Source: Streptomyces sp. NBC_00457
Lineage (GTDB): Bacteria > Actinomycetota > Actinomycetes > Streptomycetales > Streptomycetaceae
Assembly (NCBI RefSeq): GCF_036014015.1
Contig: NZ_CP107905.1
Location: forward strand, 4,650,001-4,714,000
Direction: 5' to 3'
Length of the DNA stretch: 64,000 bases
How positions within the stretch are numbered: position 1 is the first letter of the stretch; every line of letters begins with the position of its first letter. Shown here in pieces: positions 10,985-29,887 of this stretch. A program made the translations under genes and the position numbers. Below the pieces are notes generated by a model. The model worked only from the letters and a program-made list of their open reading frames with translations. It had not been told where the DNA came from and made no database searches.

Positions 10985-11380
10985 CTACCAACGCGACGAG
11001 AACGGCTGGTCCGTCGACACGATTTCGCGGCCCAGCGGGAGCAGCGACACCGGGATGAGCTTGAAATTGGCGATGCCGAACGGGATGCCGATGATCGTGA
11101 CGCACAGGGCGATGCCGGTGACGATGTGGGCCAGGGCGAGCCACCAGCCCGCGAGGACCAGCCACAGGACGTTGCCGACGCAGGAGGGGGCGCCGGCGTC
11201 GCGGCGCTCGACCGTCGTGTACCCGAAGGGCCAGAGGGCGTAGACGCCGATACGAAACGCGGCGACACCGAACGGGATGCCGATGATGGTGATGCACAGC
11301 AGCAGGCCCGCGAGCAGGTAGCCGAGGAACAGCCAGAAGCCGCTCAGGACGAGCCAGATGACGTTGAGGATTGTCTTCAC
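10985..11380 (-). CDS. yccF: YccF domain membrane protein
   Basis: 131 aa with two tandem YccF units (about residues 4-56 and 68-120), each with a hydrophobic segment ending in the conserved IIGIPFG motif followed by a loop and a second hydrophobic segment. The function of YccF proteins is unknown; they are inner-membrane proteins. The start is GTG at 11380, overlapping the htpX stop in a GTGA, so the two genes are translationally coupled. This suggests a shared role in membrane protein quality control or envelope stress, which is inference from the operon only. Confidence 0.9.
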
Positions 11381-12240
11381 TGGGGGCGACCTGCCATCTT
11401 CTCGAGCCGGGCGATGCGTTCGGCCATCGGCGGATGTGTCGAGAACATCTTGGAGAATCCCTGACCGGGCCGGAAGGGGTTCGCGATCATCATGTGGCTC
11501 GCCGTCTCGATGCGGGGTTCGGGCGGCAGCGGGAGCTGCTTGGTGCCCGTCTCGAGCTTGCGCAGGGCGCTGGCGAGGGCCAGGGGATCGCCGGTGAGCT
11601 GGGCGCCGGATGCGTCCGCCTCGTACTCCCTGGAGCGGCTGATGGCCAGTTGGATGAGGGTGGCGGCGAGCGGGCCCAGGATCATGATCAGCAGCATGCC
11701 GAGGAGGCCGGGTCCGTCGTCGTCATCGGAGCGGCCGATCGGGATCAGCCAGGCGAAGTTGACGAGGAACATGATCACCGAGGCGAGCGCGCCGGCGACC
11801 GACGAGATCAGGATGTCGCGGTTGTAGACGTGGCTGAGTTCGTGGCCGATGACGCCGCGCAGTTCGCGCTCGTCGAGGATGCGCAGGATGCCTTCGGTGC
11901 AGCACACGGCCGCGTTGCGCGGGTTGCGGCCGGTCGCGAAGGCGTTCGGCGCCTCCGTCGGGGAGATGTACAGGCGGGGCATGGGCTGGCGGGCCTGGGT
12001 GGAGAGGTCACGGACCATGCGGTACAGGGCCGGGGCCTCGAATTCGCTCACCGGGCGGGCGCGCATCGCGCGTAGCGCGAGCTTGTCGCTGTTCCAGTAC
12101 GCGTACGCGTTGGTCCCGAGGGCGATCACGACCGCGACGATGAGCCCCATACGGCCGAAGAGGCTACCGATGACGATGATGAGTGCGGACAGTCCCCCGA
12201 GGAGTACTGCGGTCCTGAGCCCGTTGTGCCGGCGGTGCAC
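11377..12240 (-). CDS. htpX: HtpX family membrane zinc metalloprotease
   Basis: 287 aa, M48 family. Two N-terminal membrane helices (about 10-28 and 31-49), the zinc and catalytic motif HELSH at 133-137, two more helices near 145-167 and 178-200, and the third zinc ligand E205 in EYEAD. HtpX cleaves damaged or misassembled membrane proteins at the cytoplasmic face. GTG start at 12240 with GGAGG 7 nt upstream. First gene of the htpX-yccF pair, and downstream of nuoN2 on the same strand with a 177-bp gap. Confidence 0.96.
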
Positions 12241-12417: not shown

Positions 12418-13941
12418 TCAGAAGAGGCCGGTGTCGGCGAAGCGCAGGACCACCTGGGGCGCTCCGGAGAGAGCGATGCCGAGTGCGGCGGTGATGGTGA
12501 TCGCCGCGGTGACGGGTGCGGGCACCCGGTGCTCGACGGGCTCGCCCTCCGGGGCGCGGAAGAGCAGGGCCGTCCACTGGAGGTAGTAGAACAGCGCGAT
12601 GACTACGTTGACGGCCATCACCACGGCGAGCCAGCCGAGGCCCGCGTCGACGGCCGCGGAGAAGACGGTGACCTTGGCGAAGAGGCCGATGATGCCCGGG
12701 GGCAGTCCGGCGAGGCAGAGCAGGAAGAAGGCCAGGAGGAGGGCGGAGAGGGGGTTCTTCGCGTACAGGCCGCGGTAGTCGGTGATGCGGTTGAGGGGTC
12801 TTGTACGGCCCACCAGTGCGGCCACCGCGAAGGCGCCGAGGTTCACGGCGGCGTACATGAGCGCGTAGGCGACGGTGGAGCCGATGGACTTCTCGGCGTC
12901 GTCGGAGTACGCGGCGGCGGCGATCGGCACGAGCAGATAGCCGGCCTGGCCGACGGACGACCAGGCGAGCAGTCGTACGGCGCTGTACGCGCGCGTGGCC
13001 TGCTGGCGCAGGGCGCCGACGTTACCGACGGTCATGGTCAGGGCGGCCAGCGCGGCGAGTGCCGGGCCCCAGACGTCGGCGTACGACGGCAGCGCGATGA
13101 CCGTGACGAGGATCAGGCCGGAGAAGCCGACCGCCTTGCCGACGACCGACAGATAGGCGGCGACCGGCAGCGGCGCTCCGATGTAGGTGTCGGGAACCCA
13201 GAAGTGGAAGGGCACGGCGGCCGTCTTGAAGGCGAAGCCGACGAGGGTGAGGACGACGCCGGTCTGGGTGAGGGTGACGAGCTGTCCGTCGACATCCTGG
13301 ATCCGGTCGGCGATCTGGGTGAGGTAGAGGGTGCCGGTGGAGGCGTACACGAAGCTGATGCCCATGAGGCTGACCGCGGTCGCGGTCACCGAGGACAGGA
13401 AGAACTTCAGCGCCGCCTCGGAGGACTTCCGGTCGCCGTGGCGGAGGCCGACGAGGGCGAAGGCAGGCAGGGAGGCTACTTCCAGGGCGACGATGAGGGT
13501 CGCCAGGTCGCGGGAGGCGGGCAGGAGGGCGGCGCCGGCCGCGGAGGACAGGAGCAGGAACCAGAACTCCCCTTCGGGGAGTCCCTTGTTGGCGTCCTTC
13601 AGGGCCGTCACCGACAGCAGGGCGGCCAGGAGGGCGCCGCCGAGGACCAGGAACTGGATGACGAGGGTGAAGCGGTCGGCCGTATAGCTGCAGATGTCCG
13701 GGGCGCCAGTCAGGCAGAAGGTGCTCCGGTCGCCGTCCAGGAGGGGCAGCAACAGGGCGGCGGAGGCGGCGAGGCCCGCGACCGACACCCAGCCGAGCAG
13801 TGTCTTCCGGGTCTCGGCGAGGAACAGGTCGGCCACGAGGACGACGAGTCCGACGACTGCCGTGACGGTGGGCGGCGCGATGGCGAGCCAGTCGACGGAC
13901 TGGACGAGGGACTCGGCCAGTGGCTGGGCCAGGGCGCTCAT
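12418..13941 (-). CDS. nuoN2: NADH-quinone oxidoreductase subunit N, second copy
   Basis: 507 aa antiporter-like membrane subunit of complex I with about 14 helices. The conserved Mrp-type core is present, including the charged positions in LVGFAFKTAAVPFHFWVPD and the lysine/glutamate segments of proton-channel subunits. ATG at 13941 overlaps the nuoM2 stop in an ATGA. Last gene of the ten-gene nuo2 operon. It is shorter than the nuoN of the other cluster at the right edge (549 aa) and clearly divergent from it. A much longer reading frame through this region is an artefact of the neighbouring gene. Confidence 0.95.
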   Translation of the reverse strand: MSALAQPLAESLVQSVDWLAIAPPTVTAVVGLVVLVADLFLAETRKTLLGWVSVAGLAASAALLLPLLDGDRSTFCLTGAPDICSYTADRFTLVIQFLVLGGALLAALLSVTALKDANKGLPEGEFWFLLLSSAAGAALLPASRDLATLIVALEVASLPAFALVGLRHGDRKSSEAALKFFLSSVTATAVSLMGISFVYASTGTLYLTQIADRIQDVDGQLVTLTQTGVVLTLVGFAFKTAAVPFHFWVPDTYIGAPLPVAAYLSVVGKAVGFSGLILVTVIALPSYADVWGPALAALAALTMTVGNVGALRQQATRAYSAVRLLAWSSVGQAGYLLVPIAAAAYSDDAEKSIGSTVAYALMYAAVNLGAFAVAALVGRTRPLNRITDYRGLYAKNPLSALLLAFFLLCLAGLPPGIIGLFAKVTVFSAAVDAGLGWLAVVMAVNVVIALFYYLQWTALLFRAPEGEPVEHRVPAPVTAAITITAALGIALSGAPQVVLRFADTGLF

Positions 13942-15512
13942 CGGGTGCCTCCTGCGAGGAGCTGCTGCACGGCCGGGTCGGTCAGACCGAGGAGGGCCTT
14001 CGGCCACAGCCCGGCGATGACGGTGAGGGCGACGAGCGGGGTCCAGGCCGCGAACTCGTAGCTCTGGACGTCGGCGAGCTTCGGTGCCTCGTGCGGGACG
14101 ACGCCCATGCAGACGCGGCGGACCACGACGAGCAGGTACGCGGCCGTCAGCAGGGTGCCGAACGCGGCGATCGACATGAAGGTCAGGAACGCCGGGCGGC
14201 TGAGTTCGTCGGCGGGGTCGAACGCGCCGAACAGCGCCAGCATCTCGCCCCAGAATCCGGCGAGGCCCGGCAGCCCGAGCGAGGCGACCGCGGCGAAGGC
14301 GAGCAGACCGCCGAGGCGGGGTGTCTTGGCGTAGAGCGCGGCGCCGGTCTTGTCGGCGAGGGTGTCGAGGTCGGTCGTGCCCGTGCGGTCCTTCAGCGCG
14401 CCGACCAGGAAGAAGAGGAGGCCGGTGATGAGGCCGTGGGCGATGTTGGCGAACAGTGCGCCGTTCACGCCGGTCGGGGTCATCGTAGCGATGCCGAGCA
14501 GGACGAAGCCCATGTGGCCGACGGAGGAGTAGGCGATGAGGCGCTTCAGATCGCCTTTCGCGCCCTGCTTGGCGAGGGCGAGGCAGGCCAGCGATCCGTA
14601 GATGATCCCGACGACGGCGAACGCGGCGAGATACGGCGCGAAGGTGCGGAAGCCGTCGGGCGTGATGGGCAGCAGAATTCGGACGAACCCGTACGTACCC
14701 ATCTTCAGCAGGACGCCTGCCAGCAGGACCGAACCCACGGTCGGCGCTGCGGTGTGGGCGTCCGGCAGCCAGCTGTGCAGCGGCCACATCGGCGTCTTGA
14801 CCGCGAGCCCGATACCGATCGACAAAACGGCGATGACCTGCACGGATGTGGTCAGCGACCGGCCGTTGTCAGTGGCGAGTGCCACCATGTCGAATGTGCC
14901 CGCGTTGATTCCGATCAGCAGCAGGCCGAGCAGCATGACCACGGATCCGAGCAGCGTGTAGAGGATGAACCGCCAGGCCGCCTGGGTCCGGCCCTCGCCG
15001 CCCCAGCGGGCGATGAGGAAGTACATCGGGATGAGCACCATCTCGAACGCGAGGAAGAACAGCAGCAGATCGAGGACGGCGAAGGTCGCGAGGGTGCCGG
15101 ACTCGAGGACGAGCAGCAGTGCGACGAAGGCCTTCGGGGTCGGGCCCGCAGGCATCTTGAAGTAGGAGTAGAGCGCGCAGAGGAAGGTCAGCAGCGCGGT
15201 CAGGACCAGAAGGGGGAGGGAAATGCCGTCGATGCCGAGGTGGATCCGTACGTCGAGTGCGGGGATCCAGCTGATGTCCGTGCTGGCCTGCATCTTCGAC
15301 GGCTGGTCGTGGTCGAAGCCCAGCGTGAGGACGATCGCGGCGATGAGGACCGCGCCGGTCACGGTGACGCCGTGCCGCAGCACGGCCTGCTCGGGTGACT
15401 TCCCCTTCAGCCCGGGCGGAGCCGGCAGGAGAGCGGCGGCCGCGCCGAGGAGCGGGCCGACGACGACGAATGCCAGAAGGAACTGCATCACGGACTCGTT
15501 GATATCGATCAC
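13938..15512 (-). CDS. nuoM2: NADH-quinone oxidoreductase subunit M, second copy
   Basis: 524 aa membrane subunit of complex I, antiporter-like proton channel. The essential glutamate region (LAFEMVLIPMYFLIARWGG), the lysine motif AVKTPMWPLHSWLPDAHTAAP and the RLIAYSSVGHMGF helix are all present, so it looks functional for proton translocation. ATG at 15512, 6 bp after the nuoL2 stop. No tail extension. Confidence 0.96.
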   Translation of the reverse strand: MIDINESVMQFLLAFVVVGPLLGAAAALLPAPPGLKGKSPEQAVLRHGVTVTGAVLIAAIVLTLGFDHDQPSKMQASTDISWIPALDVRIHLGIDGISLPLLVLTALLTFLCALYSYFKMPAGPTPKAFVALLLVLESGTLATFAVLDLLLFFLAFEMVLIPMYFLIARWGGEGRTQAAWRFILYTLLGSVVMLLGLLLIGINAGTFDMVALATDNGRSLTTSVQVIAVLSIGIGLAVKTPMWPLHSWLPDAHTAAPTVGSVLLAGVLLKMGTYGFVRILLPITPDGFRTFAPYLAAFAVVGIIYGSLACLALAKQGAKGDLKRLIAYSSVGHMGFVLLGIATMTPTGVNGALFANIAHGLITGLLFFLVGALKDRTGTTDLDTLADKTGAALYAKTPRLGGLLAFAAVASLGLPGLAGFWGEMLALFGAFDPADELSRPAFLTFMSIAAFGTLLTAAYLLVVVRRVCMGVVPHEAPKLADVQSYEFAAWTPLVALTVIAGLWPKALLGLTDPAVQQLLAGGTR

Positions 15513-15518
15513 GCCTGC

Positions 15519-17513
15519 TCACGCTCCGGTGGCGACGAGGACGGCGGCGACCGCGAGGACGACGGTGCCGGCGAGCAGCGCGCTCACATAGGTCTGCACA
15601 TTGCCGGTCTGTGCGCGTCGTACGGCGGCACCGAGCCAGCGCGGCAGGGTGCCCGCGCCGCGTACGTAGGTCTCGACGACCTCGCGGTCCAGGAACCGGA
15701 CGAGGGTGGCTCCGGCCCGGACCGGGCGGACGAAGAGTGCCGAGTACACGGCGTCGAGGTGGAAGCCGACAGCCGCGTGCCGGTGGAGCGGGCCGAGCAG
15801 GAGGCGGCCCGGGTCGGCCGGGTCGGGCGCGTAGGCCACATCTCCGTAGGCAGGCGCGTGGCTTGCGATGGCCTCGGCCTCGACCAGTCCGGCGTCGCCT
15901 TCGGGGTGGGCCGCGACCGCGCCGATCGGTGTGCGGGCCGCCAGTGCGGTGGTGCGCTGCCAGGCCCCGTAGGTGACGAGTCCGCCGACCACGGCGAGGC
16001 CCGTGCCGAGGATGGACGTGGCGAGGGTCGGGGTCAGATCGTCGCCGTCGAACCAGCCGGGCAGCGACTGGTAGGCCAGCCCGCCGATGGCGAGTGACGG
16101 CGCGGCGAGCACCCAGAGCACCACGGTCATGGTGAGGGGCTGCCTGCCGTGGTCCGGGGCCTCGGCTCCCCGGCCGCGGAAGGCGAGCAGCCACAGGCGC
16201 ATCGCGTAGGCGGCGGTGAGCAGGGCTGTGAGCAGGCCGGCGACGAGGATGATCCAGCCCGCGGCGAGGGGGACGCCTTCGGCGTGGCCGGTGGTGATGT
16301 GCTCAGCGGCGCCGAGGACGGACTCCTTGGAGAAGAAGCCGCTGAAGGGCGGGATCGCGGCGAGCGCGAGGAGGGCCACGGTCATCGTCCAGTAGGCGTC
16401 CGGGACGCGGTCGCGCAGGTCGCGCATCCGGGACATGGCGGCCAGCGAGTTGGTGCCGGCAGCGTGGATGATCACGCCGGCCGCGAGGAACAGCAGCGCC
16501 TTGAAGGCGCCGTGCGTGAGGAGGTGAAAGACGGCGGCTCCGCGGTCGCCGACAGCGAGGGCGCCGGTCATGTAGCCGAGCTGGCCGATCGTCGAGTAGG
16601 CGAGGACGCGCTTGATGTCGTCCTGGGCGAGCGCGGCCAGCGCCGAGCCGGCCATCGTGACGGCGGCCATGACGGCGAGGACGACCATCGCGGCCTGCGA
16701 GGCCTCGAAGACAGGGAGGAGACGGGCGATGAAGTAGACACCGGCGGCGACCATCGTCGCGGCGTGGATCAGCGCGGAGACGGGCGTCGGGCCGGCCATC
16801 GCGTCGGGGAGCCAGGTGTGCAGCGGGAACTGCGCCGACTTGCCCGCCACGCCGGCGAGGAGCAGCAGGGCGATCAGGGTCGGATGGTCGAGCGCGCCGG
16901 TCGACACGGCACCGAGGATCTTGGTGATCCGGAAGGACCCGGCGTCGGTGGCCAGCGCGAACAGGCCGATCAGGAAGGGGACGTCACCGAGCTTGGTCAC
17001 CAGGAATGCCTTGAGGGAGGCGGCGCGGGCCTCCGGGGTCTCCCAGTAGTGACCGACCAGGAAGTAGGAGCAGATGCCCATGATCTCCCAGCCGACCAGC
17101 AGCACCATCAGGTCGCCGGAGTAGACGACGAGGAGCATCGCGGAGGTGAAGAGGGAGACGAGGGCGGCGTACGAGGGGTAGCGCGGGTCGTCGCGCAGGT
17201 AGCCCATCGAGTAGATCTGCACGCAGGAGGCGACGAAGGCGACCAGTACGGCGACGAGGGCGGCGAAGCCGTCGATGTGCAGGGCGAGTTCGATCGGGAT
17301 CGAGCCCGTGGGGGTCAGTTCGGTGGCCGCGGTCACGGCCTCGTCACCGCCCTGGCGCACGGCGACCAGCACAGCCACAACGAGGGAGGTGAGGACGGGC
17401 AGGACGGCGAGCGGGCGGACGAAGCCGGGAGCGCTACGGCCCAGGAGCAGGCCGGCGGCCGCGCCCAGGAACGGGAGGAGGGGGACGAGGACGGCGAGGG
17501 TGGTCGTGGTCAC
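15519..17513 (-). CDS. nuoL2: NADH-quinone oxidoreductase subunit L, second copy
   Basis: 664 aa, the full length expected for NuoL, including the long C-terminal amphipathic helix region and final helix. Core motifs are present: [51 protein letters not shown] and [14 protein letters not shown]. It is the distal proton-pumping subunit. The start is GTG at 17513, overlapping the nuoK2 stop (GTGA). Confidence 0.96.
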
Positions 17514-17899
17514 GCGGTGGCCTCAGCCTTCTCGGCCGCGCCGGCTGCCGGGCCGTCGGTCTCGGGGCTCTCGGGCTCGTGGCCCTCGGCGGTGTCGCGG
17601 AGCTTGTCGATGTCCGCGGTGCCGCGGTTGCGGTGGACGGCGAGGACGATCGCCAGGCCGATGCCGATCTCGGCGGCGGCGATGGCGATGGTGAACAGGG
17701 TCAGCGCCTGGCCGGAGTGCAGGGTCTCCTCGGCGGTCCTGCTGAGCCAGACGTCGAAGGCGACGAGGTTGAGGTTGACGGCGTTGAGCATCAGCTCGAC
17801 GGACATCAGAACCAGGATCGCGTTGCGCCGGGCGAGGACGCCGTAGAGGCCGGTGCAGAAGAGGAGGGCGGAGAGTACGCCGGGATAGGCGAGGTGCAT
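17510..17899 (-). CDS. nuoK2: NADH-quinone oxidoreductase subunit K, second copy
   Basis: 129 aa. Residues 1-99 are the normal three-helix NuoK with its buried glutamates ([16 protein letters not shown] and [14 protein letters not shown]). Residues 100-129 form an added acidic, Pro/Glu/Ala-rich tail not found in ordinary NuoK (usually about 99-102 aa). ATG at 17899 overlaps the nuoJ2 stop by one base (TGATG). Confidence 0.95.
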
Positions 17900-18642
17900 C
17901 AGCGGACACCTTCCTCGTCGGAGCCGTCTGCGCGGCCGGCTCCCGTGCCGCTGCGGGCTCCCGTGCCGTTGTCGGACCCCTTGCCTGGGTCGGCTCCCTT
18001 GGCTCGGTCGCCCTTGGCTCGGTCGGTTCCCTTGCCGCTCGGGGTGTTCGGGCCGGTGGCCGCGTCCGCCTTTGTCTTGCGGGAGAGGACGATCGCGCCG
18101 ACCAGGGCGGCGAGGAGGAGGACGGAGAGGGCCTCGAAGGGGAGGACCCAGTTCTGGAAGAGGCTCGCTCCGGTGGCCTCGGTGGAGCCGGCGGCCGGGC
18201 CGTCCAGCTCGATCCAGGTCGTGCGGAAGGCGTCGACGACGACCCAGACCAGGGCGGCGGCCGCGGCGACGGCGACGGTGAGGGCGGCCCAGCGGTTGCC
18301 GGAGTCGGCGTCCGGGGAGCGGCCGATGGGGGCCCTGGTGAGCATCAGACCGAACAGAAGGAGGACGACGACGGAACCGACGTAGATGAGGACCTGGACC
18401 CAGGCGATGAACTCGGCGGTGAGCAGGAGGTATTCCACGGCGAGGCCGCCGAGGGTCACCACCAGCCACAGGGCGGCGTGCACCAGCTGCCGGGTGGTGA
18501 CGGTGACCAGGGCGGCGCCGAAGGTGACCAGGCCGACGAGGAGGAAGGCGATCTCGACGCCGGTCGGGGAGAGAAAGCCGTGCGTGTCGGCGGCGACGGT
18601 GGTCGTGGTGTGCGCCGACGCGGCGGCCGAGGCGAGGATCAC
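17899..18642 (-). CDS. nuoJ2: NADH-quinone oxidoreductase subunit J, second copy
   Basis: 247 aa. Five membrane helices occupy residues about 28-187, with the mobile pi-bulge helix segment [21 protein letters not shown]. Residues 188-247 form an extra charged Gly/Lys/Asp-rich tail with repeated RAKG and GKG units. The N-terminus has an alanine/threonine-rich lead of about 20 residues. GTG at 18642 overlaps the nuoI2 stop (GTGA). Confidence 0.95.
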
Positions 18643-19394
18643 GACTCGCCTCCCTGCGGGTCGGAGGGCTTGGCCTGGGAATCGGAGGGCTTGGCCTGCG
18701 GATCGGACGGCTTCGCCTGTGGGGTGGTGCCGGGCCCGCTCTCGGGTGTGGGGGTCGATGTGGGCCCGGACGGTTGGGCGGTGCCGGGCTGGCCCTCAGG
18801 CTTGGGGGGCAGTGTGGGCCCGGATGGCGCGGTGCCGGGCTGGCCCTCGGGCGGAGGGGGTGGTTCGGCCTGTGCGGCTGCCAGTTTGTCGGCGGTTTTG
18901 CGGGCTGCGGCGATTTCCTTGGGTTCTTCCGCGGCGGGGTCGAGGGCGGGTGGGGCGGGGACCGTCCACATCCACTCGCGGAGCTTGTCGCGTTCGTGGG
19001 TGAGTTCGCGGATGTCGGTCTCGGCGTACTCGAACTCCGGGGACCAGAACAGGGCGTCGAAAGGACAGACCTCGATGCAGATACCGCAGTACATGCACAG
19101 GGCGAAGTCGATGGCGAAGCGGTCCAGGACGTTGCGGCTGCGTTCGCGACCGCCGGGGGCCGCGGGCGGGACCGTCTCCTTGTGGGAGTCGATGTAGATG
19201 CACCAGTCCGGGCACTCGCGGGCGCACAGCATGCAGACCGTGCAGTTCTCCTCGAACAGGCCGATGACACCGCGGGTGCGGGGCGGCAGGTCGGGCTGGG
19301 CGTCCGGGTACTGGTCGGTGACGGACTTCCTGGTCATCGTGCGGAGGGTGACGGCCAGGCCCTTGGCGAGGCCGGACCCGGGAATGGGGGCCAT
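18639..19394 (-). CDS. nuoI2: NADH-quinone oxidoreductase subunit I, second copy (two 4Fe-4S clusters)
   Basis: 251 aa. Residues 1-170 are a complete 8Fe-8S ferredoxin-type NuoI with both cluster motifs, C51-C54-C57-C61 and C100-C103-C106-C110, which carry electrons to the terminal cluster N2 in NuoB. Residues 176-251 are a low-complexity Pro/Gly/Gln/Lys tail containing two copies of an EGQPGTA-type unit and three QAKPSD units; the DNA coding for the latter is a 21-nt tandem repeat near 18658-18720. ATG at 19394, two bases after the nuoH2 stop. Confidence 0.95.
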
Positions 19395-19396
19395 GG

Positions 19397-20365
19397 TTAC
19401 TGGATCACCACCTTCACGATGCCGGTGAGGGCGATCTGGGCGAGGGAGAGGGGGACGAGGAGGGTCCAGGCGAGCTTCTGGAGCTGGTCCTCGCGCAGGC
19501 GGGGGTAGGTCACGCGGAGCCAGATCACGATGAAGGCGAGGACGGCCGTCTTCAGCAGGGTCCAGACCCAGCCGAGGCCGTCGGCGCCCCAGGGGCCGTG
19601 CCAGCCGCCCAGGAAGAGGACGGTGGTGAGGCCGCACAGGACGACGATTCCGGCGTACTCGGCGAGGAGGAACAGGGCGAAGCGGAGGCCGGTGTACTCG
19701 GTGTAGGCGCCGAAGATGATCTCCGAGTCGGCAACCGGCATGTCGAACGGGGGACGCTGCAGTTCGGCCAGCCCCGCCACGAAGAAGACGATCGCGCCGA
19801 CGATCTGCCAGGGCAGCCACCACCACTCGAAGGCGTCGAGGATGCCGGGGAGGGAGACCGTGCCGGCTGCCATCGCCACGGAGGCGGCGGTGAGCAGCAT
19901 CGGGAGTTCGTAGGCGAGGAGTTGGGCGGCGGTGCGCAGGCCGCCGAGGAGGGAGAACTTGTTGGCGGATGCCCAGCCGGCCATGAGCGAGCCGAGGACG
20001 CCTACGCCCATCACCGCGAGGACGAAGAAGATGCCCGCGTCGATGACCTCGCCGACCGCGCCCTCGCCCGGGCCGATGGGGATGGCGAGGAGGACCAGGA
20101 GGTACGGGAGGAGCGCTACGGCAGGGGCGAGCTGGAAGACACGGCGGTCCGCGTCCGCCGGGACCACATCTTCCTTCTGCGCGAACTTCACGCCGTCCGC
20201 GACGAGTTGGGCCCAGCCGTGGAAGCCACCGGCGTACATGGGGCCGAGGCGGCCCTGCATATGGGCCATGACCTTGTGCTCCGTCTGACCGATGATCAGA
20301 GGGAAGGTGAGGAAGACGACGAAGACGATCAGGAGTCGCAGGGTGACGTCGAGCACGTCGTTCAC
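19397..20365 (-). CDS. nuoH2: NADH-quinone oxidoreductase subunit H, second copy
   Basis: 322 aa, eight-helix membrane subunit that lines the quinone chamber. The conserved motifs are present: [50 protein letters not shown] and the [13 protein letters not shown] end. Its quinone-facing loops normally contact NuoD, which this operon lacks. GTG at 20365 overlaps the nuoC2 stop, so nuoH2 directly follows nuoC2 where nuoD-E-F-G would normally lie. Confidence 0.95.
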
Positions 20366-21495
20366 TGCGGGCCTCCTGCGGGGTCTTCGGGGGTCGGGGA
20401 CTCGGAAGTTGAGGGTTCGGGGCGCGGGGTTTCCGGGGTGGCGTCCGCGTTCTCGTCCTCGGACTTCGGGGCGGTCTTCCCGGGCGGCTCGGCCCCCTCC
20501 GGCTCGGGTTCGTTGAACGCGGGGCGGGCGTGGTGCCAGGGGGCGTCCGCGCTCCGGGGCGCCTCGGGCGGCGTGCCGGTGGCGGAGGCGGAGTCCGACG
20601 CGTCCTCTGGCGCCGCACCCTCCGGCGTCGCTGCCTCCGTCCGCTGCGAGGCCGAACCCTCGCCCACGCTCCGCGCGCGACGCGGCCGGGCCGGGGCAGC
20701 CGAAGTAGCCGACGGAGCCGAAGGCGCTCCCTCCCCCGAGCCTGTGCCGCTGTCCGGCGTCGCCGTCTGACTCGCCGAGCCCTCCGACGCCGTACGGCTA
20801 CGACGTACCGGACGGTCGCCCGCGCCCGCGCTCCCACCCGCACCCGCACGTGCTGCCCGTGCAGGACGTTCGCCCGTGCCGCGTGCTGCCGCGCCGCGTG
20901 CGGGGCGGGCCGGGGCGGGCGGGAGTTGGCCCTTCTGGGGGCCCCATTCGTTGGGGTCGGGGACGCCCGGGGGGAGCATCTGGCGGCGCTTGGGGCCGCC
21001 GTGCTCGGACTCGCCCGGTTCCTTCGCGCCCGGCCATGCCTTGACCACGCGGGAGGCGAGGACGAAGTCCTTGCGGAGGGGGTGGCCCTCGAAGGTCTCG
21101 GGCAGGAGGAGGTGGTCCAGCGCCGGGTGGCCCTCGAAGTGGACGCCGAACATTTCGTGGGTCTCGCGTTCGTGCCAGGCCGCGCCCGCGTACACGTCGA
21201 TGGCGGTGGGCAGGGCAGGGGCCTCGTGCGGGACCGTCGTACGGAGCAGCAGGCGTCGTACCGGCGAGAGGGCGGCGACATGGGCCGCGATGCGAAAGCC
21301 CGTGCCGGGTTCGTCGACCGCGCTGAGCCAGTCGAAGTAGGTGCAGCCCAGTTCGTCGCGGGCGGTCCGGAGTGCCGTGGTCCAGGCCGACGCCGGTACG
21401 TCGACCGTCAGGACCTCGTACGACTCCTCGGCCGTGGCCTCCGCGCCGAAGAGTTCCTCCGCGGGGGCGGGCAGCCAGCCGACGGCACCGGTCAT
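20362..21495 (-). CDS. nuoC2: NADH-quinone oxidoreductase subunit C, second copy, with long disordered tail
   Basis: 377 aa. Residues 1 to about 187 are the 30-kDa NuoC domain, ending with its signature [16 protein letters not shown] and [11 protein letters not shown]. The remaining 190 residues are an Ala/Pro/Ser/Glu-rich low-complexity extension with repeated GEGSASQ-type and TPE-type units; ordinary NuoC stops near residue 200. It is not a NuoC-NuoD fusion, because no 49-kDa domain follows. ATG at 21495 overlaps the nuoB2 stop. Confidence 0.92.
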
Positions 21496-22184
21496 CGGGC
21501 CTCCCCCGTATCGCCGTCCTTCGCGGTACCGCTGTCCGTCCCGCTACCGCTCTCGGCCCCGCTACCGCTGTCCGCCCCGCTACCGCCACCCGTCGCCGAC
21601 ACCGCCGGCGGCTGCACCAATCCGCTCTGCAGCGCCGCCGCGGACGGACGCCCCGCAGGAGTTCCGTACCGCTCCCCCAGCGACTCCCGAGAGATCTTCT
21701 CCTGGAGCTTGATGATCCCCTGGAGCAGCGCCTCGGGCCTGGGCGGGCAGCCCGGCACGTACACATCCACGGGGATGATCTGGTCGACGCCCTTGGTGAC
21801 GGAGTACGAGTCCCAGTACGGGCCGCCGCAGTTGCTGCACGCGCCGAAGGAGATGACGTACTTGGGCTCGGGCATCTGCTCGTACAGGCGCTTCACGGCG
21901 GGGGCCATCTTGTCGGTGACCGTGCCGGAGACGACCATCAGGTCGGCCTGGCGCGGACCGGGTGCGAACGGGATGACACCCAGCCGGATGAAGTCATGTC
22001 GGGCCATCGACGCGGCGATGAACTCGATCGCGCAGCAGGCGAGGCCGAAGTTGAAGACCCAGAGCGAGTAGCGGCGGCCCCAGTTCAGGACGACCTTCAT
22101 CGGCTCGGGGGCGAGACGGGCGAGCGCGCCCAGCCGTTTCGGCTCCGGCAGCAGAACAGGCTCGGAAGAAGGAGTCACGTCCAT
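21492..22184 (-). CDS. nuoB2: NADH-quinone oxidoreductase subunit B, second copy (N2 cluster)
   Basis: 230 aa. The four ligands of cluster N2 are all present: the tandem pair C50-C51, C116 in GACSNCGG and C146 in PGCPP. The electron-transfer function to quinone is therefore kept. Residues about 172-230 are an added Gly/Ser/Asp/Thr-rich tail encoded by roughly 18-nt repeats (about 21530-21600). ATG at 22184 overlaps the end of nuoA2 by 10 bp. Confidence 0.95.
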
Positions 22185-22582
22185 GCCAGGACTCCCTTCT
22201 TGTAGGCGTACAGCAGGCCCACGGCCAGGAAGCCGAGGAAGAGGAACATCTCCACCAGCGTCGCCGCGCCGTAGCCGGGCGCGGCGAAGACCGTCGCCCA
22301 CGGGAACAGGAAGATCGAGTCGACGGCGAAGATGACGTACAGGAAGGCGTAGACGTAGTAGCGGACCTGGGTGTGGGCCCAGCCCTCGCCGACGGGGTCG
22401 ACGCCGCACTCGTACGTCAGAAGCTTCTCGGGGGTGGGGACCACGGGCCGCAGCAGGCGGCCGGCGCCGAAGGCGACCGCGACGAACAGCACGCCGATGA
22501 CGGCGAGCAGCCCCACGACCGAGTACGACTGGAAGTAGTCCGCCGCGACGACGACGGTCGAATCGCGCACGTCCGTCTTCAC
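22175..22582 (-). CDS. nuoA2: NADH-quinone oxidoreductase subunit A, second copy
   Basis: About 135 aa, three membrane helices. The conserved loop [39 protein letters not shown] is intact. The start is uncertain: GTG at 22582 has GAGG with 6-nt spacing and is my choice; GTG at 22594 has its GGGAG touching the codon, and an ATG at 22645 would lengthen the N-terminus beyond the family norm. First gene of the nuo2 operon, about 65 bp from a good promoter. Confidence 0.93.
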
Positions 22583-22676: not shown

Positions 22677-22778
22677 GCAGGCCTTCACGCCTTGGTCCAC
22701 AGGGGTGGGGTTTTCCCCCGTGTATCCCGGCGGCCGACCTCATGGCGCGTCGGCCGTCCGCGCGGCACGCTAGCCCAT

Positions 22779-23999
22779 ATGACCGCACGCATCCCCACCC
22801 CCGGCACGTCTCGATACGACGTCACCGCCACCGACGCCGACCGTCTGCCGCCGGCCCGTTTCGCCTACGACCGGCAGACCTGGAAGGAGATCGCGCACCT
22901 GCTGGCGAACCTTCCGATCGCGCTGTTCGGGTTCGTGTACGTCGTGACGGTGCTGGCCACCGGCGCGTGGCTGACCGTCACGGTGATCGGCTTCCCGCTG
23001 CTCGCGGCCGGGCTGATGGGCGCGCGACAGTTGGGCAAGCTGGAACGGAAGCGGGCCAGGGCGCTGCTCGGGGTGCGGATCGATGAGCCGAGCCCACTGC
23101 CGTTGCGCAGCCGCAACAACGGCGTCTTCGCGCAGCTGTGGATGTCGCTGAAGGACCCGGTGGGCTGGCGCACGGTTCTGTACGACTTCATCCGGCTGCC
23201 CTGGGGCATCCTCACCTTCACCATCACGCTGGTCTCGCTGTTCGTGCTGTGGCCGGTGCTGCCGTTCATCGCGCGGGGGCTGACCAACGCGGACCGGGCG
23301 ATGGTGCGGGGGCTGCTGTCGCCCTCGGACGAGCTGGAGCGCCGTATCGCCGAGCTGGAGTCGGACCGGGGGGTCGTGGTCGACACGGCCGCCGCCGACC
23401 TGAGGCGCATCGAACGCGACCTGCATGACGGGGCGCAGGCGCGGCTGGTCAATCTGGCCATGGGGCTGGGCCTGGCCAAGGAGAAGCTGCTGGAGGACCC
23501 GGACTACGCCGCGTCGATGATCGCGGAGGCGCACGGCGAGGTGAAGCTGGCGCTGCAGGAGCTGCGGGACCTCGCGCGCGGGATCCACCCCGCGGTCCTC
23601 ACCGACCGTGGCCTGGACGCGGCGCTCTCCTCCGTCGCCTCGCGCTGCACCGTGCCCGTGAAGGTGATGGCCGACCTGGACGCCAGGCCGGCCGCGGCGA
23701 TCGAGGGCATCGCCTACTTCACCGTCTCCGAGCTGCTGCAGAACATCAGCAAGCACAGCGGGGCGCGGACCGCGTCGGTCGATGTGTGGCGGGTGGAGAA
23801 CCGGTTGCTGATCCAGGTGTGGGACGACGGGCGCGGCGGTGCGCAGCTCGACGGCGGGACCGGCATGAGCGGCCTCGCCGAGCGGCTGGACGCCGTCGAC
23901 GGCCTGTTCGTCGTCGACTCGCCGGCCGGCGGCCCTACGACGGTGACGGCCGAGCTGCCGTGGCGGGACCGCGCGCCTGACGCGGGCGCCCAGAGGTAG
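22779..23999 (+). CDS. Sensor histidine kinase, NarL type (paralogue 1)
   Basis: 406 aa from ATG at 22779; a 29-codon in-frame extension upstream is rejected because it runs through the divergent nuoA2 promoter region. Layout: a membrane sensor domain with two helix hairpins (about residues 38-82 and 130-168, the 'putative sensor' domain type), a dimerisation helix with phospho-acceptor H216 in RIERDLHDGAQARL, and a HATPase domain with the N box in LLQNISKHS and the DDGRGG G1 motif. It autophosphorylates and passes phosphate to a LuxR-type regulator, presumably the one at 25974. Duplicated with the following kinase gene. Confidence 0.92.
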   Translation: MTARIPTPGTSRYDVTATDADRLPPARFAYDRQTWKEIAHLLANLPIALFGFVYVVTVLATGAWLTVTVIGFPLLAAGLMGARQLGKLERKRARALLGVRIDEPSPLPLRSRNNGVFAQLWMSLKDPVGWRTVLYDFIRLPWGILTFTITLVSLFVLWPVLPFIARGLTNADRAMVRGLLSPSDELERRIAELESDRGVVVDTAAADLRRIERDLHDGAQARLVNLAMGLGLAKEKLLEDPDYAASMIAEAHGEVKLALQELRDLARGIHPAVLTDRGLDAALSSVASRCTVPVKVMADLDARPAAAIEGIAYFTVSELLQNISKHSGARTASVDVWRVENRLLIQVWDDGRGGAQLDGGTGMSGLAERLDAVDGLFVVDSPAGGPTTVTAELPWRDRAPDAGAQR

Positions 24000-24129
24000 G
24001 GAAAACCCCCCGTTCAAGAGGCCGACGGACTCCATGGTCCGCGGAACCGCGGCAGAGCAGTGTGTGGGGTACGACGGCACAGCCGCGGTACGACCAGGAC
24101 GAGCAGGCCGAGTAGAACGGACGACGCCG

Positions 24130-25521
24130 ATGGCCACGGAGTACGGACAGGGCTACGCCCAGCGCGACAGCGGGCTCGGACACCCCACCGGACACCCCAC
24201 GGAGTACGCCACGTACGCCACCGAGACCAGGCGGCACCGGCTGCCGGCGGGGCTGCGGGCGCCGTTCGAGGCGCGCAGCTGGCGCGAGTTCACGTATGTG
24301 CTGCTGAGCCTGCCGATCAGCATCCTGCTCTACACCTACGCCGTGACGATGGTGTCGCTGGGCGCGGGCCTGCTGGTCACCTTCCTCGGGATTCCGGTGC
24401 TGGCCGCGGGGCTCGCCGGGTGCCGGCTGTTCGGGTCGCTGGAGCGGGCGCGGGCGCGGGGGCTGCTGGGGCTCGAGGTGGCGGCGCCCGAGCCGCTGCG
24501 GATGCGGAAGCCCGGCGCGATGGCCTGGATGGGGGCCGTACTCAAGAGCGGCTCGTCGTGGCGGGCACTGCTGTACGCGGTGCTGCACCTGCCCTGGGCG
24601 GTGTTCTCCTTCGTCGTCTCCGTGACCGCCTGGTCGATCGGCTGGTCGCTGCTGACGTATCCGCTGTGGTTCTGGCTCTTCCCGGTGTACGGCGGTCAGG
24701 ACGGCCTGCAGTTGTACGGCGACGAGACCCACCACGTCTACCTCGACAACCCCTTCGAGATCACCGTCACGGCGCTGGTGGGGCTGTTGTTCACGCTGGC
24801 CACGCCGTGGATCGTGCGGGCGTTGACCACGGTGGACCGGATGCTGGTGCACGGGCTGCTCGGGCCGTCGCGGCTGGCCACGCGGGTCGTGGAGCTGGAG
24901 TCGGACCGGGGGGTCGTGGTCGACACCGCGGCGGCCGACCTGCGGCGGATCGAGCGGGATCTGCACGACGGGGCGCAGGCGCGGCTGGTGGCGTTGGCGA
25001 TGGATCTGGGGCTGGCGAAGGAGAAGCTGACGGAGGATCCTCAGGCCGCGGCGCGGATGGTGGACGAGGCGCACGGTGAGGTGAAGACGGCGCTGCAGGA
25101 GCTGCGGGATCTGGCGCGGGGGATTCATCCGGCGGTGCTGACGGACCGGGGGCTGGATGCGGCGCTGTCGTCGGTGGCGTCGCGGTGCACGGTGCCGGTG
25201 CAGGTGGAGGTCGATCTGGTGGAGCGGCCGGCGCCGGCGATCGAGGGGATCGCGTACTTCACGGTGTCGGAGCTGCTGCAGAACATCAGCAAGCATTCGC
25301 GGGCCACGTGGGCGGCGGTGGATGTGTGGCGGGTGGATCACCGGCTGATGCTGCAGGTCGTGGACAACGGGGTGGGGGGCGCGGACACCTCCGGTGGGTC
25401 GGGGCTGGCGGGGCTGGCCGAGCGGTTGGACGCGGTGGACGGGATTCTGGTGGTGGATTCGCCGGTGGGGGGGCCTACGCGGGTGACGGCGGAGTTGCCG
25501 TGGCGGAGTGAGCGGGTGTGA
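24130..25521 (+). CDS. Sensor histidine kinase, NarL type (paralogue 2)
   Basis: 463 aa from ATG at 24130. Same architecture as the preceding kinase: a Gly/His/Thr-rich N-terminus, a four-helix membrane sensor (about 55-97 and 146-232, with an extra inserted loop at 185-207), H279 in the same ERDLHDGAQARL motif, N box LLQNISKHS and G box DNGVGG. The kinase cores of the two proteins are nearly identical, and 35 nt are identical at DNA level (23352-23386 and 24892-24926), so they arose by tandem duplication while the sensor domains diverged. It probably shares the response regulator downstream. The last 400 bp are unusually G-rich on the coding strand. Confidence 0.92.
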   Translation: MATEYGQGYAQRDSGLGHPTGHPTEYATYATETRRHRLPAGLRAPFEARSWREFTYVLLSLPISILLYTYAVTMVSLGAGLLVTFLGIPVLAAGLAGCRLFGSLERARARGLLGLEVAAPEPLRMRKPGAMAWMGAVLKSGSSWRALLYAVLHLPWAVFSFVVSVTAWSIGWSLLTYPLWFWLFPVYGGQDGLQLYGDETHHVYLDNPFEITVTALVGLLFTLATPWIVRALTTVDRMLVHGLLGPSRLATRVVELESDRGVVVDTAAADLRRIERDLHDGAQARLVALAMDLGLAKEKLTEDPQAAARMVDEAHGEVKTALQELRDLARGIHPAVLTDRGLDAALSSVASRCTVPVQVEVDLVERPAPAIEGIAYFTVSELLQNISKHSRATWAAVDVWRVDHRLMLQVVDNGVGGADTSGGSGLAGLAERLDAVDGILVVDSPVGGPTRVTAELPWRSERV

Positions 25522-25973
25522 GCGGGTGACGTGGGCCGGGGCTGAGCTGGGGCAGGGCTGAGCTGGGCTGGGGCTGGGCAAAGGTGGGTGCGCAGCCGCC
25601 GCGCCGTCGTGGCCGGGGTGGGGTGGGTCGCGCAGCCCGGCGCTGGCGGGGTGCCGCCTGCGCCCACCCGTGCCGCCCCAGGCGGCACGCATGCCCGCAG
25701 CTGGGGCGGGACAGCAGCCCGCAGCTGAGCGGGACGGGGTCCGCAGCTTGGCGCGACGGCGGCCCGCCGCCTCCGCCGCGCGACAACCGGATACGTGCAA
25801 CTACGGGCAGTCCGCAGCCGCGGGCGGCCGAAACTCTGCCCCCTCCCCCCACCACCCCGCCATTCCCGTCCCCATTTCCGCAGCCCTGGCGCAGTCCGGA
25901 CCGAATGCTGGAATGCTGGGGGTCTTGGTGGGCGCTGTTGGGCTGTGGGGGGCCGAAGATCGTGGAGGACAGG
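25522..25973. other. Intergenic region with GC-rich repeats
   Basis: 452 bp between the second kinase and the response regulator. The first 60 bp contain several GGGCTGAGCTGGG-like units, and further on CGCAGCT recurs at least three times (about 25695-25755). No believable coding sequence is seen: the open frames here have poor codon bias and run on from the regulator frame. It probably holds the promoter of the response regulator and repetitive intergenic elements. Confidence 0.55.
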
Positions 25974-26886: not shown

Positions 26887-28815
26887 GTGACCAGCCAGGT
26901 CAGCAGCCCAGCGGAGCAGGCCGACGAAGCCGTCGTGGGAGAGCAGCGCAAACCGGCAGGAGAGAAGGACGTCCGCCGGCTGGACAGAGTGATCATTCGG
27001 TTCGCGGGGGACTCGGGTGACGGTATGCAGCTCACCGGAGATCGCTTCACCTCGGAGACGGCGTCCTTCGGCAACGATCTGTCGACGCTGCCGAACTTCC
27101 CCGCCGAGATCCGCGCGCCCGCAGGAACCCTGCCGGGCGTTTCGTCTTTCCAGCTCCATTTCGCCGACCACGACATCCTGACCCCGGGCGACGCGCCGAA
27201 CGTGCTGGTCGCGATGAACCCGGCCGCCCTGAAGGCCAACATCGCCGATGTGCCGCGCGGCGCGGAGATCATCGTCAACACGGACGAGTTCACCAAACGG
27301 GCGATGCAGAAGGTCGGCTATGCGGCGAGCCCGCTGGAGGACGGTTCGCTCGACGGCTACAACCTTCATCCGGTGCCGCTGACGACGCTGACGGTCGAGG
27401 CGCTCAAGGAGTTCGACCTCACCCGCAAGGAGGCCGAGCGCAGCAAGAACATGTTCGCGCTTGGCCTGCTGAGCTGGATGTACCACCGGCCCACCGAGGG
27501 CACCGAGAAGTTCCTCACCGCCAAATTCGCCAAGAAGCCCGATATCGCGGCCGCGAACATCGCCGCGTTCCGGGCGGGCTGGAACTTCGGCGAGACGACG
27601 GAGGACTTCGCCGTCTCCTACGAGGTGGCCCCGGCCGCGAAGGCCTTCCCGGTCGGCACCTACCGCAACATCTCCGGGAACCTGGCCCTGTCCTACGGAC
27701 TGGTCGCCGCGTCCCGCCAGGCGGACCTGCCGCTGTTCCTGGGCTCGTACCCGATCACCCCGGCCTCGGACATCCTGCACGAGCTGAGCAAGCACAAGAA
27801 CTTCGGTGTACGGACCTTCCAGGCCGAGGACGAGATCGCCGGCATCGGCGCCGCCCTGGGCGCGGCCTTCGGCGGCTCGCTGGCCGTCACCACCACGTCC
27901 GGTCCCGGTGTGGCGCTGAAGTCGGAGACCATCGGGCTCGCGGTCTCCCTGGAGCTGCCGCTGCTGGTGATCGACATCCAGCGCGGCGGGCCGTCCACCG
28001 GCCTGCCCACCAAGACCGAGCAGGCGGACCTCCTCCAGGCCATGTTCGGCCGCAACGGCGAGGCCCCGGTCCCGATCATCGCCCCGCAGACGCCGGCCGA
28101 CTGCTTCGACGCCGCGCTGGAGGCGGCGCGTATCGCGCTGACGTACCGCACGCCGGTGATGCTGCTGTCCGACGGCTACCTGGCCAACGGCTCGGAGCCA
28201 TGGCGCATCCCCGACATCGACGACCTCCCGGACCTGGGGGTGCAGTTCGCGCAGGGCCCGAACCACACCCTGGAGGACGGCAGCGAGGTCTTCTGGCCGT
28301 ACAAACGCGACCCGCAGACCCTCGCCCGCCCCTGGGCGATCCCGGGCACGCCGGGCCTCGAACACCGCATCGGCGGCATCGAGAAGCAGGACGGCTCCGG
28401 CAACATCTCCTACGATCCCGCCAACCACGACTTCATGGTCCGCACCCGGCAGGCGAAGATCGACGGCATCGACGTGCCGGAGCTGGAGGTCGACGACCCG
28501 GACGGCGCGCGGACGCTGGTCCTGGGCTGGGGCTCGACGTACGGGCCGATCACGGCGGCGGTACGGCGGCTGCGCCGGGCCGGGGAGTCCATCGCACAGG
28601 CCCATCTGCGGCACCTCAACCCCTTCCCGCGGAATCTCGGCGCGGTGCTGGAGCGTTACGAGAAGGTGGTAGTGCCCGAGATGAACCTCGGTCAGCTCGC
28701 CACGCTGATCCGGGCGAAGTACCTGGTCGACGCGCACAGCTACAACCAGGTCAACGGCATGCCGTTCAAGGCCGAACAGCTCGCCACGGCTCTCAAGGAG
28801 GCCCTCGATGGCTGA
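26887..28815 (+). CDS. korA: 2-oxoacid:ferredoxin oxidoreductase, fused gamma-alpha subunit
   Basis: 642 aa. The N-terminal gamma domain starts VRRLDRVIIRFAGDSGDGMQLTG (motif at residues 41-50), followed by the alpha domain with GSYPITPASDILHELSKHK and the TTTSGPGVALKSETIG segment. With KorB it makes a thiamine-diphosphate enzyme that oxidises a 2-oxoacid, probably 2-oxoglutarate, to the acyl-CoA and reduces ferredoxin. GTG start at 26887 with GGAGG 11 nt upstream. Translationally coupled to korB by an 8-bp overlap. In mycobacteria and Streptomyces, KorAB supplies the oxidative TCA step as an alternative to the dehydrogenase complex; substrate assignment is from the family. Confidence 0.95.
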   Translation: MTSQVSSPAEQADEAVVGEQRKPAGEKDVRRLDRVIIRFAGDSGDGMQLTGDRFTSETASFGNDLSTLPNFPAEIRAPAGTLPGVSSFQLHFADHDILTPGDAPNVLVAMNPAALKANIADVPRGAEIIVNTDEFTKRAMQKVGYAASPLEDGSLDGYNLHPVPLTTLTVEALKEFDLTRKEAERSKNMFALGLLSWMYHRPTEGTEKFLTAKFAKKPDIAAANIAAFRAGWNFGETTEDFAVSYEVAPAAKAFPVGTYRNISGNLALSYGLVAASRQADLPLFLGSYPITPASDILHELSKHKNFGVRTFQAEDEIAGIGAALGAAFGGSLAVTTTSGPGVALKSETIGLAVSLELPLLVIDIQRGGPSTGLPTKTEQADLLQAMFGRNGEAPVPIIAPQTPADCFDAALEAARIALTYRTPVMLLSDGYLANGSEPWRIPDIDDLPDLGVQFAQGPNHTLEDGSEVFWPYKRDPQTLARPWAIPGTPGLEHRIGGIEKQDGSGNISYDPANHDFMVRTRQAKIDGIDVPELEVDDPDGARTLVLGWGSTYGPITAAVRRLRRAGESIAQAHLRHLNPFPRNLGAVLERYEKVVVPEMNLGQLATLIRAKYLVDAHSYNQVNGMPFKAEQLATALKEALDG

Positions 28816-29887
28816 GACGTCCACGGAAGGCACGGGCACGATCGAGTCGCTTTCGCTCGTCCCCAAGGCCGAGGCCCGCCAGTCCATGAAGGACTTCAAG
28901 TCCGACCAGGAAGTGCGCTGGTGCCCCGGCTGCGGTGACTACGCGATCCTCGCGGCCGTGCAGGGCTTCATGCCGGAGCTGGGCCTGGCCAAGGAGAACA
29001 TCGTCTTCGTCTCGGGCATCGGCTGCTCGTCCCGCTTCCCGTACTACATGAACACGTACGGCATGCACTCCATCCACGGCCGCGCCCCCGCCATCGCGAC
29101 CGGCCTGGCAGCCTCCCGCCGCGACCTGAGCGTGTGGGTCGTCACCGGCGACGGCGACGCGCTGTCCATCGGCGGCAACCACCTCATCCACGCCCTGCGC
29201 CGCAATGTGAACCTGAAGATCCTGCTCTTCAACAACCGGATCTACGGCCTCACGAAGGGCCAGTACAGCCCGACGTCGGAAGTCGGCAAGATCACCAAGT
29301 CGACGCCGATGGGCTCCTTGGACGCGCCCTTCAACCCGGTCTCGCTGGCGATCGGCGCCGAGGCGTCCTTCGTGGCCCGGACGGTGGACTCCGACCGCAA
29401 GCACCTGACCGAGGTGCTGCGCCAGGCCGCCGCCCACCCGGGCACGGCACTGATCGAGATCTACCAGAACTGCAACATCTTCAACGACGGCGCCTTCGAC
29501 GCGATCAAGGACAAGCAGCAGGCGGAGGAGGCGGTGATCCGGCTGGAGCACGGGCAGCCGATCCGCTTCGGTGCCGACGGCTCGAAGGGTGTCGTACGCG
29601 ACGAGTACACCGGCGACCTCAAGGTCGTGACCATCACGCCGGAGAACGAGGCGCAGATCCTGGTCCACGACGCCCACGCGACCTCACCGACCACGGCGTT
29701 CGCCCTGTCCCGCCTCGCCGACCCGGACACCCTGCACCACACCCCCATCGGCGTCCTGCGCTCCGTCGACCGACCCGTCTACGACACGCAGATGGCCGAC
29801 CAGCTCGACACGGCGATCGAACAGAACGGCAAGGGCGACCTGGCGGCACTGCTGGCCGGCGGCGACACCTGGACCGTAGTCGGCTGA
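28808..29887 (+). CDS. korB: 2-oxoacid:ferredoxin oxidoreductase, beta subunit
   Basis: 359 aa. Carries the thiamine diphosphate and one 4Fe-4S cluster: C39 and C42 in WCPGCGDY, C73 in GIGCSSR and C222 in EIYQNC are the likely cluster ligands, and VVTGDGDALSIGGNHLIHALRRN (GDGD at 114-117) is the diphosphate/magnesium motif. Reduced ferredoxin is the product, so the pair links the TCA cycle to ferredoxin-using reactions. ATG at 28808 overlaps the end of korA. Followed by a perfect hairpin. Only about 4 kb separates korAB from the nuo2 promoter. Confidence 0.96.
   Translation: MAETSTEGTGTIESLSLVPKAEARQSMKDFKSDQEVRWCPGCGDYAILAAVQGFMPELGLAKENIVFVSGIGCSSRFPYYMNTYGMHSIHGRAPAIATGLAASRRDLSVWVVTGDGDALSIGGNHLIHALRRNVNLKILLFNNRIYGLTKGQYSPTSEVGKITKSTPMGSLDAPFNPVSLAIGAEASFVARTVDSDRKHLTEVLRQAAAHPGTALIEIYQNCNIFNDGAFDAIKDKQQAEEAVIRLEHGQPIRFGADGSKGVVRDEYTGDLKVVTITPENEAQILVHDAHATSPTTAFALSRLADPDTLHHTPIGVLRSVDRPVYDTQMADQLDTAIEQNGKGDLAALLAGGDTWTVVG

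Follow-up and report, generated by a model that had tools for sequence, protein, structure and literature searches.

Fpo, the F420H2 dehydrogenase of methanogens, has an 11-subunit core without NuoE, NuoF, and NuoG. A second nuo cluster of Streptomyces, with nuoD2 placed apart, has been reported by Moody et al. 2013 (PMC3765725) and for S. ambofaciens (PMC8388888), in papers that, as far as their accessible text goes, both deal with non-coding RNA; the former describes a conserved antisense RNA opposite nuoM2-L2, and the separate position of Streptomyces nuoD2 is already known from it (PMC3765725). In excerpts of further work, NDUFAF7 is stated to dimethylate symmetrically Arg85 of NDUFS2, which lies in an HRGxE motif next to cluster N2 (PMC3829151, PMC3750175, PMC8042128), and the function of prokaryotic MidA to have been inferred in silico only (PMC12455994). 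The available part of PMC9503403 describes a NuoD tyrosine that binds the quinone headgroup, belongs to a Tyr-His-Asp triad called strictly conserved, and is discussed as a prime candidate proton giver in quinone reduction. The system described here is the ten-gene nuo2 operon A2-B2-C2-H2-I2-J2-K2-L2-M2-N2 of Streptomyces sp. NBC_00457, encoded on the minus strand (22582-12418) of a stretch of 64,000 nucleotides (the window; C1:4650001-4714000, where C1 is the only contig of this 10.8-Mb genome). The operon and its outlying nuoD2 gene probably specify a complex I of 11 subunits that lacks the NADH-input module (N-module), has a dedicated NuoD methyltransferase and an altered quinone site, and would be fed by ferredoxin. 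All ten operon genes are present in the order claimed by the original prediction, which was made from the window alone, and each carries the expected Pfam domain; they are given below in window coordinates together with nuoD2.

22175..22582, minus strand: nuoA2; Pfam PF00507 Oxidored_q4 (E 2.2e-30); start codon one of several GTG codons.
21492..22178, minus strand: nuoB2; Pfam PF01058 Oxidored_q6, NCBIfam NuoB, motif comparison.
20362..21495, minus strand: nuoC2; Pfam PF00329 Complex1_30kDa over residues 31-149 of 377.
20362..20365, minus strand: stop-start overlap of nuoC2 and nuoH2, the site of nuoD2 in deeper actinobacterial operons.
19397..20365, minus strand: nuoH2; Pfam PF00146 NADHdh (E 2.2e-100); ratio of nonsynonymous to synonymous substitution rates (dN/dS) 0.03-0.14 within the genus.
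18639..19394, minus strand: nuoI2; Pfam Fer4 domains, NCBIfam NuoI below its cut-off.
17899..18642, minus strand: nuoJ2; Pfam PF00499 Oxidored_q3.
17510..17899, minus strand: nuoK2; Pfam PF00420 Oxidored_q2.
15519..17513, minus strand: nuoL2; Pfam PF00361 Proton_antipo_M and PF00662, TIGR01974 over its cut-off.
13938..15491 (start 15491, 15488 or 15512), minus strand: nuoM2; Pfam PF00361 Proton_antipo_M, TIGR01972 over its cut-off.
12418..13941, minus strand: nuoN2; Pfam PF00361 Proton_antipo_M, TIGR01770 below its cut-off.
C1:4910885-4912036, minus strand, outside the window and about 240 kb from the operon: nuoD2; Pfam PF00346, 383 amino acids from ATG.

As predicted, nuoC2 is joined directly to nuoH2; the stop codon of C2 overlaps the start codon of H2 at 20362-20365, leaving no room for a NuoD, NuoE, NuoF, or NuoG gene between them. 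A NuoD hidden inside the long NuoC2 was ruled out, since Pfam gives Complex1_30kDa only; the C-terminal half of NuoC2, outside the Pfam domain, is a low-complexity tail of about 200 residues. Start-stop overlaps occur at seven of the nine junctions, with a gap of 2 nt between H2 and I2 and of 6 to 30 nt, depending on the start codon chosen, between L2 and M2, so that their description as running throughout the operon was slightly too strong. The Fe-S ligands are intact, cysteine motifs being present in both proteins concerned: NuoB2 has the N2 ligand cysteines and the type-2 motif GxC[A/S]NCGGPYW with one additional Cys, and NuoI2 has two 4Fe-4S motifs separated by a longer loop than in NuoI1. 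For the claim of intact proton-channel motifs in L2, M2, and N2, inspection by eye indicated that most membrane Lys and Glu residues common with the type-1 subunits (those of the main, nuo1 cluster) are kept. Identity between the ten type-2 subunits and their type-1 counterparts in this genome is 33-46%, which points to paralogues of long standing rather than a recent duplication. The tested genes are under purifying selection, with dN/dS of 0.03-0.38 in comparisons with three congeneric genomes (H2, I2, J2, C2, nuoD2, midA) and 0.31-0.74 against one more distant genome (H2, I2, J2, D2, MidA); the selection anticipated for the operon is thereby supported for H2, I2, J2, and C2, the four of its ten genes that the test covered.

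A genome-wide PF00346 search yielded two NuoD genes, one in the main cluster (4722087) and the orphan nuoD2, and all 11 core subunits (A, B, C, D, H, I, J, K, L, M, N) are accordingly encoded, ten in the window and the eleventh by nuoD2. The operon itself does lack exactly nuoD, E, F, and G, but nuoD is present elsewhere in the genome, and the suggestion that the full cluster supplies NuoD was rejected because this dedicated gene exists; nuoD2 groups with in-operon nuoD2 genes, and its product differs from NuoD1 at two positions beside the N2/quinone site. The original prediction had named a paired nuoD-G locus as evidence that would count against it, and of such a locus the nuoD search found nuoD2 but not E, F, and G; no NuoE, NuoF, or NuoG gene lies in the nuo2 operon, NuoE and NuoG having had no genome-wide search. 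NuoD2 almost certainly belongs to the nuo2 complex.

The history of this split was traced in a phylum sample of 149 genomes, at least 131 of which have a NuoD match among the matches listed, and in the neighbourhoods of 60 NuoD places (20 kb each, shorter at contig ends). A NuoD of the type-2 clade is found in 55 genomes, own included, in the operon in 39 and detached in 16. Where the stretch is complete the in-operon order is A2-B2-C2-D2-H2-I2-J2-K2-L2-M2-N2, often directly after the nuo1 cluster, and in deeper actinobacteria it is precisely the gap between C2 and H2 that nuoD2 occupies. In another 14 genomes the operon as fetched runs from C2 to H2 without D2; 13 of them carry nuoD2 elsewhere, and none was found in G022, which is 90% complete and has the C2-H2 operon. 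NuoD2 forms a single clade in a maximum-likelihood tree, in which the detached state needs three changes, at least two of them forced by well-supported branches; nuoD2 thus appears to have lain ancestrally between C2 and H2 and to have left the operon at least twice in actinobacterial history. The NuoD set excludes L054, a frame without NuoD match, and L166, fetched from G133, which held no NuoD; L121 and L122, which the tree places outside the NuoD2 clade, are not counted as type 2. In G021 (loci L120 and L181) nuoC2 and nuoD2 have left the operon together and now stand beside midA, and in G060 (C1:453938-454225) only two short pieces of nuoH2 survive, alongside nuoD2 and midA.

Alignment to 2fug chain 4, ungapped over the stretch concerned, places NuoD2 Trp81 at Thermus Tyr87, Yarrowia Tyr144, and mammalian Tyr108, and the canonical Tyr of the quinone triad is absent from NuoD2. 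Trp occupies this position in 55 of 55 NuoD2 of the phylum sample, in all 80 of a set of named loci (the best 80 of 587 confirmed, from Streptomyces, Actinacidiphila, Kitasatospora, Actinomadura, and one other actinobacterium), in 55 of 55 in a class sample, and in 120 of 120 database homologues (the best 120 of 8000), and the 75 remaining NuoD rows (26 + 10 + 39) all keep Tyr. The equivalent of Thermus His38 is His in 55/55 NuoD2, and that of Asp139 is Glu in 45/55 and Gln in 10/55; Glu is also found there in 21/26 type-1 NuoD, so that this change is not specific to NuoD2. Yarrowia Y144F/W/H mutants have considerable Q1/Q2 activity, as cited in the accessible portion of PMC9120487, and Trp therefore need not abolish quinone reduction; that Trp81 alters the quinone chemistry is given slightly less than even odds. 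On the NuoB side, the clade motif GxC[A/S]N[C]GGP[Y/F]W is present in 36 of the 43 rows sorted as NuoB2 (the other seven being in the wrong frame, not read, or not type 2), with the extra Cys in 35 of the 36, and four type-1 NuoB, own included, have GxCAS[S/T] with no Cys at that place.

Regarding electron input, the predicted use of a donor other than NADH proved likely. G100 and G120, two genomes that share a genus with each other and are 94 and 96% complete, carry the 11-gene nuo2 with a single NuoD match, which is type 2, and gave no NuoF match at E 0.001, implying that a type-2 complex can exist without NADH module. NuoE, F, and G of the main cluster might alternatively dock on NuoI2/NuoC2 to give a second NADH dehydrogenase, as could be suggested by the many nuo2 operons read that run on from a nuo1 cluster and by the intact NuoF1 of this genome; this is unlikely, given that G100 and G120 have a complete nuo2 with neither a NuoF match nor a second NuoD match, and that NuoI2 is 33% identical to NuoI1 with different loop length and residues. 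Two other NuoF-like genes of the genome resemble a formate dehydrogenase and a ferredoxin fusion. The first, at C1:2219354 (L013), looks by eye like a fusion of NuoE and NuoF with a NuoG/formate-dehydrogenase-like frame behind it, and probably encodes a formate dehydrogenase linked to NAD; the other, at C1:7164750-7165859 (L015), encodes a NuoF-like protein with, by eye, a ferredoxin-like C-terminal stretch, and lies beside a membrane protein gene away from both nuo clusters. Two [NiFe]-hydrogenase-like loci (L011, L012) were seen by eye among the NuoB-family matches. Input of F420H2 through an FpoF/FrhB-like subunit was rejected, PF04432 having 0 matches in this genome at E 0.001.

For an electron donor other than NADH, ferredoxin is the leading candidate and is somewhat favoured over the remainder, its putative source being encoded divergently from nuo2 at about 4.3 kb:

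26887..28815, plus strand: korA, 2-oxoacid:ferredoxin oxidoreductase alpha subunit, candidate source of reduced ferredoxin; Pfam PF01855, PF01558, PF17147.
28808..29887, plus strand: korB, 2-oxoacid:ferredoxin oxidoreductase beta subunit; Pfam PF02775.

The intervening region (22692-26633, plus strand) holds two PF13796 sensor-domain histidine kinases and a LuxR-type response regulator. korA lies 9-10 kb from nuoL2 in 4/4 sampled genomes of the genus, own included, and in the phylum sample strong KorA matches occur in 49/55 NuoD2 genomes vs 13/94 others, a count of 62 that leaves out five weak matches (E about 1e-73 to 1e-77, family f18, no nuoD2). As a phylum-wide neighbour of nuo2, KorAB was discarded, with no match in 60 stretches and proximity to nuoL2 in the genus only.

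The gene adjoining nuoD2 encodes a methyltransferase of the MidA/NDUFAF7 type, the sole PF02636 match of the genome (61.4 bits; curated cut-off 23.3). It agrees with the fold of solved MidA/NDUFAF7 and keeps the S-adenosylmethionine-binding glycine motif and the NE..D motif, with G74, G76, G78, N131, E132, and D135 invariant or nearly so over 12 rows; an NCBIfam search at 1e-5 gave no match for it. Its predicted target is present in NuoD2, where, in an ungapped alignment to Thermus over the stretch, Arg58 corresponds to Thermus Thr64 and human Arg85. In the phylum sample 55/55 NuoD2 have Arg at this position and 26/26 type-1 NuoD have Thr, with the reservation that groups were partly sorted by this residue, the 26 being Thr by definition although each also scores as NuoD1; ten further NuoD outside both groups have Arg, and another 39 divide into 21 Arg and 18 Thr. 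In the class sample, the pattern used missed one of the 55 NuoD2 arginines. MidA is found in 44/83 genomes with an Arg-type NuoD vs 1/18 with Thr-type only; 48 of the 149 genomes are unclassified in this table (no NuoD match, or NuoD not read), and all 45 MidA-positive genomes are classified.

Linkage of midA to nuoD2 extends well beyond this genome. MidA lies within 6 kb of nuoD2 in 74/80 named loci (43 convergent downstream, 26 codirectional upstream, 5 divergent), and three of the six loci without it have a flank cut by a contig end. In the phylum sample it occurs in 39/55 NuoD2 genomes vs 6/94 others; 25 of the 39 genomes with both genes have them within 25 kb, and MidA is close in 15 of the 16 genomes with detached nuoD2. 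Searching in reverse from MidA, PF02636 was detected in 64 of 197 genomes of the class: 55 of the 58 newly fetched ones have NuoD2 within 7.5 kb (the misses being G188, G198, and G154, whose match is weak and partial and lies on a 3.3-kb contig), and the remaining six all have the pair. The methyltransferase might nonetheless act on another target, its position being an inherited accident, since a neighbourhood within one genus can be inherited, its activity here is predicted from sequence, and 16 nuoD2 genomes have no MidA match. This appears rather improbable, a little more so than sharing of the NADH module, as the pair persists in three local arrangements over the named loci, has been kept even though nuoD2 left the operon on at least two separate occasions, and is matched by MidA downstream of nuoN2 in nine stretches, some of deeper lineages. 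Methylation of NuoD2 Arg58 by MidA is quite likely, judging from linkage and target residue.

Exchange of L2, M2, or D2 into the main complex under some conditions would be a further possibility; swapping of L2/M2 was proposed, in the accessible text of Moody et al., by analogy with cyanobacterial NDH-1 (PMC3765725), and the antisense RNA opposite nuoM2-L2 would fit it. Such mixed complexes are very unlikely, considering that many genomes of the phylum, G100 and G120 among them, retain the full set of 11 core subunits, and that type-2 NuoB and NuoD carry matching clade-specific changes around N2 and the quinone site. That NuoD1 of the main cluster also serves the type-2 complex, as the ten-gene operon without nuoD might suggest, is hardly credible beside a dedicated nuoD2 under purifying selection.

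For a separate, ferredoxin-fed type-2 complex, the following scheme is proposed. Ten subunits would be made from the operon and the eleventh, NuoD2, from the orphan gene; while NuoD2 joins NuoB2, MidA would symmetrically dimethylate Arg58, and this modification may stabilise cluster N2. Electrons, most likely from reduced ferredoxin that enzymes such as KorAB make, would pass to NuoI2, on to NuoB2, and to menaquinone, with proton pumping, and the menaquinone would be reduced at a quinone site in which Trp replaces the usual Tyr.

Several observations weigh against this scheme. With respect to methylation, MidA matches 5ztz just at E 0.0017 by sequence alone; it evolves faster than NuoD2 within the genus (dN/dS 0.27-0.38 vs 0.10-0.15); nuoD2 and MidA are on different contigs in 14 of the 39 genomes with both; and the 16 of 55 nuoD2 genomes without PF02636 match, all with nuoD2 in the operon, indicate that the methyltransferase is not always present. 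Furthermore, G089 has MidA with a NuoD of Thr type only, and the arginine of E. coli NuoD stays unmethylated according to the available part of PMC3750175; together with the common occurrence of Arg without MidA, this means that the Arg does not require methylation. With respect to ferredoxin, a KorA neighbour of nuo2 was seen in no other genus (60 stretches and coordinates); KorA also gave no match in six of the 55 nuoD2 genomes, G100 and G120 included, and is present without listed nuoD2 match in G038, G049, G071, G093, G133, and G143 of the class. The co-occurrence counts, moreover, are uncorrected for shared ancestry.

Beyond nuoN2, a gene for an M48 (HtpX-like) peptidase follows at 11377-12240 (minus strand), and homologues with 46-51% identity are found in five nuo2-operon stretches of other families (L078, L095, L100, L104, L118). 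Clustering of flanking frames over the 60 stretches gave mostly antisense noise, with this peptidase as the sole informative result. A Rex operator with at most 3 mismatches was not found near nuoA1 or nuoA2 (L004 and window), an uninformative result.

The type-2 genes may define a distinct actinobacterial complex I lineage, characterised by a natural Trp, an extra NuoB Cys, and NDUFAF7-type NuoD methylation, and working as a pump driven by ferredoxin, in which menaquinone or another acceptor is reduced independently of canonical Tyr chemistry, although the odds of this fall just short of even. A natural Trp lineage under purifying selection allows the need for Tyr in coupled proton pumping to be addressed, and a cell with both complexes, of which only one is predicted to be methylated, offers a bacterial system for NDUFAF7-type methylation. 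The locus also suggests that aerobic antibiotic producers may conserve energy from electrons supplied by ferredoxin. No report of the nuoD2-MidA pair or of a natural NuoD Trp was found in a literature search that mostly missed subscription journals and is weak evidence.

Compared with known systems, Fpo differs in its FpoF/FrhB-type input subunit, which was not found in this genome (PF04432). The Streptomyces nuo2 of PMC3765725 and PMC8388888 is the same operon with the same detached nuoD2, but the accessible text of those papers makes no mention of the adjoining methyltransferase, the Arg/Thr difference, or the Trp, and their gene lists omit nuoC2. The complex of Desulfitobacterium hafniense, in the available part of PMC11238625, has the same 11 subunits without NuoE, NuoF, and NuoG, and ferredoxin is among its candidate donors; here, in contrast, nuoD lies apart from the operon and is linked to the gene of a predicted NuoD methyltransferase, and the NuoD2 proteins compared have Trp in place of the quinone Tyr. 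Finally, NDUFAF7/MidA acting on NDUFS2 Arg85 (PMC3829151, PMC3750175) shares with the present pair the methyltransferase family and fold and the HRGxE target motif of NuoD, and whereas that work, as far as its accessible text extends, demonstrates the enzyme in human cells, and the modification of the residue in mammals, Pichia, and Paracoccus, the gene is linked here to a second complex I of actinobacteria.

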